Assembly: GCA_025354405.1 (NCBI GenBank)
Contig: JANXMY010000082.1
Span: forward strand, 1 to 64,000
Direction: 5' to 3'
DNA length: 64,000 bases
From: Armatimonadota bacterium
Lineage (GTDB): Bacteria > Armatimonadota > Armatimonadia > Armatimonadales > Capsulimonadaceae
The notes under the pieces are model-generated. The model had not been told where the DNA came from. It searched no databases and was given only the letters and a program-made list of their open reading frames with translations. Within the stretch, counting starts at the first letter, position 1. Each line of letters begins with the position of its first letter. Below, in pieces: positions 121 through 2,223 of this stretch. The translations under genes were made by a program, and so were the position numbers.

Positions 121-434
121 TGTTGGACCCAAGAATTTAGACAGTGAAAGCGGCTAAAATAAGGTGTGCCGATAAAAGGCTCACCCGATGACAACCCGAA
201 AAACTCACACCGCTACATTCAAGGCGCAGGTCGTCCAGCAAGTCCTGCACGAGTACGATAGTCCCCGCGCAGACCGCAAAGGACTGGCTGACTACTTCGA
301 GTTCTACAACCAGGGGCGCCTGCATCAGTCGCTTGGCTGCCGCACTCCCGCCGAAGTTTACTTCGATACGACCCTGCAGAAAAAGGGAAGACTGAAAAAA
401 GGCCAAGCCACTGTCTTGACAAAGGGGTTCACCA
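121..434 (+). mobile_element. IS3-family remnant with internal deletion (MITE-like)
   Basis: A short element bounded by imperfect 25-bp inverted repeats at 121-145 and 410-434. The left repeat begins TGTTGGACCC and both share an ACTGTCT block at their inner ends. Inside is one reading frame (188-475) that joins the start of an IS3-type OrfA to the end of an OrfB. The transposase catalytic core is missing, so the element cannot move by itself. I see no convincing target-site duplication. IS3 assignment rests on the OrfA and OrfB end motifs. Confidence 0.75.
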
Positions 435-751: not shown

Positions 752-849
752 GTCTAACGGCAAAGCTCACCCGCGACACCGCCCGCACGACCAACCGTCA
801 GTGCTGAGGCAAATGCGGCGCTGGCATCAGATACAGCGTATTGGTAGAC
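752..849 (-). other. attC-like site of cassette 1
   Basis: Read on the minus strand, the degenerate R'' core lies at 843-849 and the R' core GTTAGAC at 752-758, 98 bp overall. The inner sequence (plus strand TAACGGCAAAGCTCACC near the left, CAGCGTATTGGTAGACCGTCT at the right) aligns with the two other sites in this array. It starts 17 nt after the stop codon of the 866-1123 gene, where an attC belongs. The R'' core has drifted from the consensus. Confidence 0.65.
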
Positions 850-865
850 CGTCTGGCAAATTGGC

Positions 866-1123
866 TTACGACTCCAGATCAAAGACCTGTGCGGATGCGG
901 CATATAGGGAGAGGGTAAATATTACCGCATCCCAATAAAGCTTCCGTCGCAACGGCTTATTCCTTGGGCCGTTGCGCTCTGACAGGTATAGTTGCGTCGT
1001 ATGCAAAACCATCAGGCCAAGAAAGATAACCGTTAAGTACAAAGCGGTCATTCTTCCTGGCTCGAAATACCAAACGTCCCAATATTGCTTCCATTCCCAG
1101 CGAAGATAGTCCAAGTTCGGCAT
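866..1123 (-). CDS. Integron-cassette hypothetical membrane protein
   Basis: An 85-residue protein starting MPNLDYLRWEWKQYWDVW. I chose ATG at 1123 because GGAG/AAGG lies just upstream and because the longer frame would run into the neighbouring attC site. Two hydrophobic segments, about residues 28-47 and 63-80, suggest two membrane helices joined by a basic loop (RNKPLRRK). The stop is followed 17 nt later by an attC-like site. No family recognised; function unknown. Orphan small membrane proteins are common among integron cassettes. Confidence 0.6.
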   Translation of the reverse strand: MPNLDYLRWEWKQYWDVWYFEPGRMTALYLTVIFLGLMVLHTTQLYLSERNGPRNKPLRRKLYWDAVIFTLSLYAASAQVFDLES

Positions 1124-1176
1124 GACTCCGCCTTGTTCCTTTCTGCCGATAAATAATAACGTGCTGTGGTCTGGCG

Positions 1177-1276
1177 TCCTAACGGCCAAACTCGCCTATA
1201 ATAGCGCCCAAACAAACTGTCCAAACTCGCAGGGGCAAACGCGGCCAATACCGTAGGGTGCAGCGCATCGTTGGGC
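1177..1276 (-). other. attC-like site of cassette 2
   Basis: On the minus strand it runs from the R'' core GCCCAAC (1270-1276) to the R' core GTTAGGA (1177-1183), 100 bp. The inner blocks match the sites at 752-849 and 1614-1715 (plus strand AACGGCCAAACTCGCC on the left, GGTGCAGCGCATCGTTGGGC on the right). It begins 11 nt past the stop of the 1287-1583 gene. Confidence 0.75.
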
Positions 1277-1286
1277 CGCTCGCGGG

Positions 1287-1583
1287 TCAGCCTTGGTCAG
1301 CTTTGTGATGGCTACAGTGACCATGATTTAATTCGTGCAGGCGGCGGATAATAACCGGATCAGCGCCACCATAACGCAAAGCATCAATTCCCGATACTAA
1401 TATGGCGTTGATTGCCTGATCCAACTCCACCGCTGTGTGCGGTTGGCGGCGAAAATAGCACTCCTCAAAGTCTAACTCCGAGTCATTCATCAAATAACGT
1501 AAAAGTCGCCGGGCGCATTTTCTGGCACTTGCGCGGGAAATTGGTTTGTCATAGTCTCTTGAAATACCTCCGTGTCTTCTCAT
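1287..1583 (-). CDS. Integron-cassette hypothetical protein
   Basis: A 98-residue soluble, charged protein (MRRHGGISRDYDKPISRASA at the start, ending HCSHHKADQG). The ATG at 1583 has only a weak GGG upstream. The cassette boundary at 1614-1620 leaves a leader of about 30 nt, common for cassette genes. An inner Met at residue 32 is an alternative start. Its stop lies 11 nt before an attC-like site. No family recognised. The C-terminal His/Cys cluster could bind metal, but that is a guess. Confidence 0.6.
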   Translation of the reverse strand: MRRHGGISRDYDKPISRASARKCARRLLRYLMNDSELDFEECYFRRQPHTAVELDQAINAILVSGIDALRYGGADPVIIRRLHELNHGHCSHHKADQG

Positions 1584-1613
1584 CCCGTGACAATCGCGGC
1601 GCTTTGTTCAGCG

Positions 1614-1715
1614 GCTTAACGCCATAGCTCACCTGCGCCAACAGCCGAAGTAAGCCCTGCGATAACGCAACGGTAAAGGCAGGCTGATGGCGTCAGGTGC
1701 AGCGCATTGTTGGGC
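1614..1715 (-). other. attC-like site of cassette 3
   Basis: The best site of the array. Read on the minus strand it starts with R'' GCCCAAC (1709-1715) and ends with R' GTTAAGC (1614-1620); both fit the RYYYAAC and GTTRRRY consensus. The near-terminal segments CAATGCGCTGCACCTGACG and GCGCAGGTGAGCTATGGC can pair imperfectly, as the folded bottom strand of an attC does. Length 102 bp. It begins 12 nt past the stop of the 1727-2167 gene. Confidence 0.85.
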
Positions 1716-1726
1716 CGTCTGGAAAG

Positions 1727-2167
1727 CTATCCGTGTTGCTCCGTCCCTAATTCTATCAATACCCAACAGGTTTCCAAACCCATTTTTTCATATGCTGCGT
1801 AACGATGATTACCGTCAGTGATGCCTAGAGTTTGATAAACATAACGAACAAGAATTGGTGCTGTTTCAGAAGGTCTCGCGATGCTTTGCACGAGATCATC
1901 TAGACGCTTATCCCAAATATCATCTTTCTCCGGGTGCTTGATATACTGGGAATTTAATTTAGCTTCTCGCTCAGGACCACAACATCTTTTCATGGCGTCT
2001 AGCCTGACCTCAGCCGGACCTAGCCAATAGCCGTTTCGTTTCTTTATTGCTTGCCACAATTCCAAATTAGGGTTTGAACTGGCAGTAAGAAAATTTCCTA
2101 TCCACTCTTTAATACGGCCTTCACGGGCATACTGCTGAGATGTATGTAAATCAAAAGTAATCGCCAT
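1727..2167 (-). CDS. Integron-cassette protein with ParB-like motif
   Basis: A 146-residue protein read from ATG 2167 (MAITFDLHTSQQ). A longer frame would begin at 2200. Near the C-terminus it has ITDGNHRYAAYEKMG followed by CWVLIE, which resembles the DGxHR motif of the ParB/sulfiredoxin-like nucleotidyl fold. In other proteins that motif binds or hydrolyses a nucleotide; activity here is unproven. The body is AT-rich compared with the chromosome. An attC-like site follows the stop by 12 nt, and a GTTGGGC core (minus strand) lies about 50 nt upstream, so this is a complete cassette. Confidence 0.7.
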   Translation of the reverse strand: MAITFDLHTSQQYAREGRIKEWIGNFLTASSNPNLELWQAIKKRNGYWLGPAEVRLDAMKRCCGPEREAKLNSQYIKHPEKDDIWDKRLDDLVQSIARPSETAPILVRYVYQTLGITDGNHRYAAYEKMGLETCWVLIELGTEQHG

Positions 2168-2216
2168 CGATTCTCTTTCTCTGCCACACTGATTTGGCAA
2201 CCGGACTAGATAAGCA

Positions 2217-2223
2217 GCCCAAC
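2217..2223 (-). other. Upstream recombination core of the cassette array
   Basis: GTTGGGC on the minus strand fits the R' core GTTRRRY and marks the upstream edge of the first cassette. The DNA to its right does not align with the three attC-like sites, so it could be the edge of an attI or of a different attC. No integrase gene follows. Confidence 0.5.

Follow-up and report, generated by a model that had tools for sequence, protein, structure and literature searches.

An integron cassette array at the edge of contig C185

The window, the whole 64,000-nucleotide stretch of contig C185 that was analysed, carries close to its left edge three minus-strand genes, each stopping just before an attC site of the same orientation. 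The first gene (1727-2167, an ORF of 146 aa) is followed by an attC site at 1614-1715 with the R'' box GCCCAAC, the R' box GTTAAGC and a textbook two-bulge stem, the second (ORF 1287-1583, 98 aa) by a site at 1177-1276 (GCCCAAC and GTTAGGA) and the third (ORF 866-1123, 85 aa) by a site at 752-849 (GTCTACC and GTTAGAC). Site lengths are 98, 100 and 102 nt, and the distances from the stop codons in front of them are 17, 11 and 12 nt (752-849, 1177-1276 and 1614-1715, respectively), which agrees with a preliminary description of this DNA that had placed sites of 98-102 bp with attC core ends 11-17 nt behind the three genes. Cassettes usually hold one ORF, and this is also true for each of the three units. 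Boxes, paired arms and extrahelical bases were found as expected for attC sites, at 1177-1276 only in part. The AT-richness claimed for the region was borne out as well, with a GC content of 0.50 across 752-2223 compared to 0.57 across 2474-64000.

The array starts on its right side at an attI-like module on the minus strand (2205-2283, 65.3 bits with sequence model R2), whose R' box GTTGGGC is located at 2217-2223. Position 2223, previously taken as the right-hand limit of the array, is the GTT|RRRY cut point of this module, and the limit was extended accordingly. The right border of the insertion (plus strand, 2474-2554) was recognized by homology to a congeneric genome (G024): from 2474 rightwards the sequence corresponds to the intergenic region between uvrC and a HAD gene and then to the HAD gene itself, whereas 2284-2473 is non-homologous. 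As base 1 of the window is the edge of the contig, the left end of the array is out of view. In the congener uvrC and the HAD gene are adjacent, and in the source genome uvrC is located on contig C92, directly downstream of a cassette gene and an attC site (C92:1086-1188), so that the window array should lie in the HAD-uvrC interval, with this synteny as the basis for linking C185 to C92.

A search of C185 with the integron-integrase family TIGR02249 gave no match; hence there is no intI in the window, as stated before, and the position next to the attI-like module where a complete integron would carry it is occupied from 2474 onwards by the HAD locus. At least two attC sites less than 4 kb apart and no adjacent intI, judged on the visible side because the left flank lies past the contig edge, define a cluster of attC sites lacking an integrase (CALIN). 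The earlier classification as CALIN therefore holds in so far as this is a cassette array without an adjacent integrase gene, but the locus is more than a cluster of attC sites, since it begins at an attI-like module. We consider it almost certain that this is a genuine integron cassette array. As read from the sequence, 752-2283 is a small array starting at its own putative attI.

The three proteins had been described as being of unknown function. This still applies to cassettes 2 and 3, for which neither a family match nor a function was obtained from Pfam, NCBIfam, PADLOC or PHROGs, but the protein of cassette 1 is weakly ParB-N-like (PF02195, E 7e-4, below the gathering threshold; phrog_8071, E 3e-5), without a convincing match among PDB sequences. 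To the left of the array lies a likely MITE-like stretch of 276 bp (124-399, plus strand), which is 96% identical to a stretch directly behind an intI fragment on contig C84 (C84:214-488, segment L006), so that copies of the repeat adjoin the window array as well as this fragment. The stretch includes part of an IS transposase gene (ORF 188-475, rve_3).

Structure and distribution of the attC family

For the structural comparison we used an independent two-bulge rule consisting of the R''/R' boxes, L arms of 3+6+4 paired bases and two unpaired bases on the 5' arm. The rule follows general features of attC sites, and its L-arm layout is that of attC-aadA7. On both strands of the 64 kb the rule matched only 1614-1715 (score 16.4) and 752-849 (14.0), and 100 shuffles, scanned on one strand each, contained two matches of at least 14 with a top score of 14.6. 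Site 1177-1276 reached only 7.4 despite good boxes, and because its L arms pair poorly it may be degraded. Folding of the bottom strands, proposed earlier as a check, gave z -2.96 for 1611-1716, -1.07 for 750-855 and +0.89 for 1170-1277. As z ranged from -2.96 to +1.23 across the attC sites folded, folding energy by itself is a weak test for attC sites of this length. In the bottom-strand fold of C92:1086-1188 the R box is paired and two bases are extrahelical. As two attC sites of the window have a degraded appearance, its array may be partly frozen.

All three window sites, whose shared inner blocks had been noticed before, are members of a single sequence family, which is also present at other arrays of the source genome. 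A covariance model (R1) built from four attC sites, the three of the window and the one on C92, detected 15 attC sites with 45-103 bits on eight contigs (C185, C92, C164, C6, C218, C109, C168 and C70), its own building sites being among those described with it. The same 15 sites were recovered by a second model (R3), built from 58 sites; 1177-1276 scored 92.8 and 68.3 bits with R1 and R3, respectively, and 752-849 scored 102.6 and 78.2 bits. In an alignment of 46 attC sites, which was fitted to the structure, 12 pairs had changed on both sides, and none of 500 shuffles equalled the alignment on all five measures. A search of the window sites against Rfam gave no match. All array loci of the source genome, which is assembled in 233 contigs, are located within about 2.5 kb of contig ends.

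The nearest named relatives are Armatimonadetes bacterium 341R_concoct_144, CP_BM_RX_R8_32 and Capsulimonas sp. RYN_270. Besides the congener G024, which is 341R_concoct_144, we compared a genome of the same family (G023), one of another family (G003) and a more distant relative (G002). R1 detected an unbroken series of 21 attC sites on C132 of G024 (10.6 kb) and two sites adjoining a complete intI in G002; altogether, 14 of 291 Armatimonadota genomes contain a match. The phylum is absent from a list of integron-bearing phyla from 2021 (PMC8618304). Two further elements were noticed: a 148-bp near-perfect palindrome in G024 with attC-like end boxes, away from the arrays and possibly a MITE (segment L022:4481-4628), and an IS that interrupts the intI-adjacent attC of G023 (segment L023, about 1168-2010) and has a short transposase ORF (1368-1901) whose family was assigned by eye.

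attI-like modules at the heads of dispersed arrays

The module at the start of the window array is common to four array heads of the source genome (window 2205-2283 on C185, and C168, C109 and C70) and is composed of TGCGGTAA, about 20 nt, TGTTAnACCGCA, a short spacer and GCGGTAAAATACTTGTTRGRY, followed by the first cassette. Model R2, which was made from these same four heads, scored 65-71 bits at exactly these positions, with no score above 18 bits in the rest of the 3.6 Mb. The 15-mer core GGTAAAATACTTGTT occurs with up to one mismatch only at three of the four heads, the core of C70 having three mismatches. Each of the four strong copies starts a different cassette array, and at none of them did we find an adjacent intI or an intI remnant. 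Just upstream of the recombination point lies an inverted repeat (CCGCA and TGCGG, separated by at least 4 nt), which is conserved in the attI modules of all five genomes and could be a binding site for IntI or a regulator. Promoter-like sites in the module were no commoner than in shuffles in a sigma-70 scan, which leaves a cassette promoter inside it unsupported. Taken as a whole, the array heads are very probably attI sites.

The congener carries an attI matching at its intI (46 bits with R2) and an orphan copy on C295 (34 bits). This copy and the head on C168 of the source genome start arrays upstream of crtI in both species (83.7% identity), and the first cassettes at this locus differ. 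Similarly, the array on C70 and one on C205 of the congener lie directly behind ssrA (tmRNA); one cassette gene is common to both (83%), and in the congener another cassette precedes it, with an attC-like remnant where attI is expected. The different cassettes at crtI and the extra cassette ahead of the shared one behind ssrA indicate that arrays changed after the divergence of the two species. In the congener, the orthologous HAD locus yielded no attI head, and the examined portion of the counterpart of the C109 locus showed no array. The arrays adjoining ssrA in the two species of the genus (segments L063:3782-4196 and L247:1112-1526) lie at a place that is well known as a hot spot for insertions.

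Several attI-headed arrays per genome are also present in the three more distant genomes, two of which have long contigs. G023 has orphan heads with attC sites behind them on C293, C271 and C353, and at C293 and C353 these are preceded by divergent N-terminal remnants of intI (110 aa with 76% identity; two pieces with 70-74% and a frameshift). In G003 (about 60 contigs) the 22-mer attI core linked to intI was found 14 times with up to three mismatches, the reversed control giving 0. Behind at least seven of these copies, among them those on C8, C17, C5 (56981), C4, C40, C48 and C56, lie attC sites in the same orientation, behind those on C34 and C52 none, and the head on C8 also has an intI remnant. 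Orphan heads of G002 are located on C33, C26 and C4. Both G003 and G002 also hold attC clusters in which no attI core was detected. On C48 of G003 (segment L266) four same-strand core copies (2434, 9217, 12913 and 13735) lie within about 11 kb, which suggests repeated attI inside or between arrays.

A comparison of 90-nt attI segments revealed that likeness follows the genome and not the locus: local alignments averaged 39.5 within genomes and 13.1 between them, a difference reached in none of 20,000 label permutations, also when the last 22 nt were left out (0/20,000). The syntenic pair C168/C295 scored 15.5, compared to 20-70 for paralogues inside each genome. Orphan copies match the intI-linked attI of their own genome where this is available, that of the source genome lying outside the assembly. 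The clustering fits within-genome homogenisation as well as repeated re-insertion at the same locus, which it does not tell apart.

Integrase genes and possible action in trans

The only intI found in the source genome, in a genome-wide search suggested by the preliminary description together with the one that yielded the 15 attC sites, is a C-terminal fragment of 48 aa at C84:1-141 (TIGR02249 positions 268-314, the last 47 residues, 85.5 bits), with the contig beginning inside the gene. It shares 96% identity with the IntI of the congener, which is complete (456.9 bits) and homologous along its whole length to the IntI4 structure 2A3V (E 1e-90). Integron-integrase matches above the cut-off occur in 10 of the 291 Armatimonadota genomes. 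Tyrosine recombinases of C61 and C207 were discarded as IntI candidates, as they score at most 70 bits against a family cut-off of 265; matches below the cut-off are also present in 14 of 14 control genomes. A plasmid search gave no match.

With a single intI found elsewhere and at least four arrays with an attI of their own, one enzyme probably serves many separated arrays. That IntI inserts cassettes at attI and that they are excised between two attC sites is established for integrons. Here, an IntI encoded elsewhere would most likely act in trans, inserting cassettes as folded bottom strands at all these attI copies (attI x attC recombination) and excising them by attC x attC recombination. 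The orphan sites would probably descend from a copied intI-attI platform that later lost intI, a route suggested by the intI remnants at two orphan heads of G023, and would have kept their fit to the integrase of the genome that carries them. We regard this combination, trans action of one integrase on several chromosomal attI copies and an origin of the orphan copies by platform duplication and intI decay, as likely. What the sequences show directly is the anatomy, which comprises the attC and attI families with their order, orientation and dispersal, the intI fragment, the grouping of attI by genome and the remnants at the two heads of G023. That a single integrase serves all the heads seems reasonably probable, and from the matching of attI by genome together with the cassette turnover at syntenic heads we infer action in trans and activity of all heads.

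Off-target insertion, intI loss and rearrangement have been given as origins of CALINs (PMC8618304), and the first of these would make the arrays ordinary CALINs, inserted at a chance GTT of a secondary site (attG), with the likeness of the heads reflecting the target preference of IntI. Such attG insertion has been reported (PMC12901181; PMC12444791), and some arrays of G003 and G002 showed no attI core. However, the heads, which share with attG insertions that cassettes lie off the main platform, are not unrelated targets unlike attI; they share a long, genome-clustered module of about 60-130 bp including the conserved inverted repeat, the likeness persists without the last 22 nt, and in G023 it runs on into the intI coding sequence. 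The length of the shared module thus largely refutes this reading of the heads, which we consider improbable. An artefact of assembly or binning, with ends of one large integron or foreign contigs taken as separate arrays, is more improbable still: the genome is fragmented and each attC is close to a contig end, but the chromosomal genes at the flanks differ from head to head and are 80-84% identical to those of the congener at the DNA level (HAD-pyrK, crtI, adk-ssrA and a GMC oxidoreductase), four distinct heads are incompatible with one array, and the same arrangement occurs within long contigs of G003 and G002. The idea that the shared blocks are an unrelated repeat could appeal to the fact that only some window sites fold much better than shuffles; it is refuted by the boxes, the two extrahelical bases where expected, the covariation, the layout of one gene per unit and the same-family attC sites adjoining complete intI in relatives, and its probability is negligible.

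More weight, although we still think it unlikely, has to be given to separate duplication or acquisition of complete integrons and loss of their intI, so that the arrays are now dead and there is no activity in trans. This is in line with the remnants at the heads C293 and C353 of G023 and C8 of G003, with the degraded appearance of two window attC sites and with the proposal of the IntegronFinder authors that CALINs are degraded integrons (PMC9024848). It is at odds with the differing crtI-locus cassettes of the congeners, with the cassette added before the common one at ssrA, and with attI copies that are still like the intI-linked attI of their own genome. A bolder reading, which we hold to be rather less likely than not, is a distributed integron in which a multi-copy chromosomal attI spreads and is homogenised inside each genome independently of intI, and one integrase inserts and swaps cassettes at many loci that differ in their neighbours and expression context. 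If true, integrons would have a further, distinct architecture, conserved in at least two Armatimonadota families.

The favoured reading, in trans service of platform-derived attI copies, departs from the usual description of integrons as one integrase, one attI next to it (PMC9024848) and one array. Like CALINs, the arrays have at least two attC sites, one gene per cassette and no nearby intI, and as in Xanthomonas, where CALINs occur at several loci and attG insertion is discussed (PMC12444791), several clusters lie away from intI in one genome; unlike the CALINs described, every cluster here with a visible start begins at a common attI-like module. IntegronFinder does not search attI outside class 1 (PMC9024848), so that an arrangement with several attI sites could be common yet unseen. 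Delta-attI-type cassettes (class 1 and 2 integrons) likewise have attI sequence off its normal place, but in their case the attC that ends a cassette within one array is replaced by a short piece of attI (PMC12901181), whereas here attI heads separate chromosomal arrays. In the openly accessible literature searched, we found no precedent for attI sites that are orphan, additional or present several times. Should one integrase feed many attI sites, cassettes could reach many chromosomal contexts, and arrays that are currently classed as dead CALINs may be live. The sequences in hand make the trans hypothesis directly testable.

The closest resemblance in content is to the sedentary chromosomal integrons of Vibrio and Xanthomonas, with a chromosomal location, lineage-specific attC sites, cassettes of unknown function, toxin-antitoxin genes and an IntI homologous to the solved IntI4 (2A3V), but here several dispersed attI copies lie away from intI, in place of the single integrase-proximal attI that is typical of integrons (PMC9024848). 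At other arrays we observed PemK/MazE toxin-antitoxin genes at the tail end of the C6 array (segment L065:8559-9172) and, at the tail of the C164 array (segment L064:6547-7132), a gene for a BrnT toxin whose likely partner antitoxin has no Pfam match. A cassette gene in the intI-linked array of G023 encodes an Imm26-like immunity protein (segment L023:609-1136).
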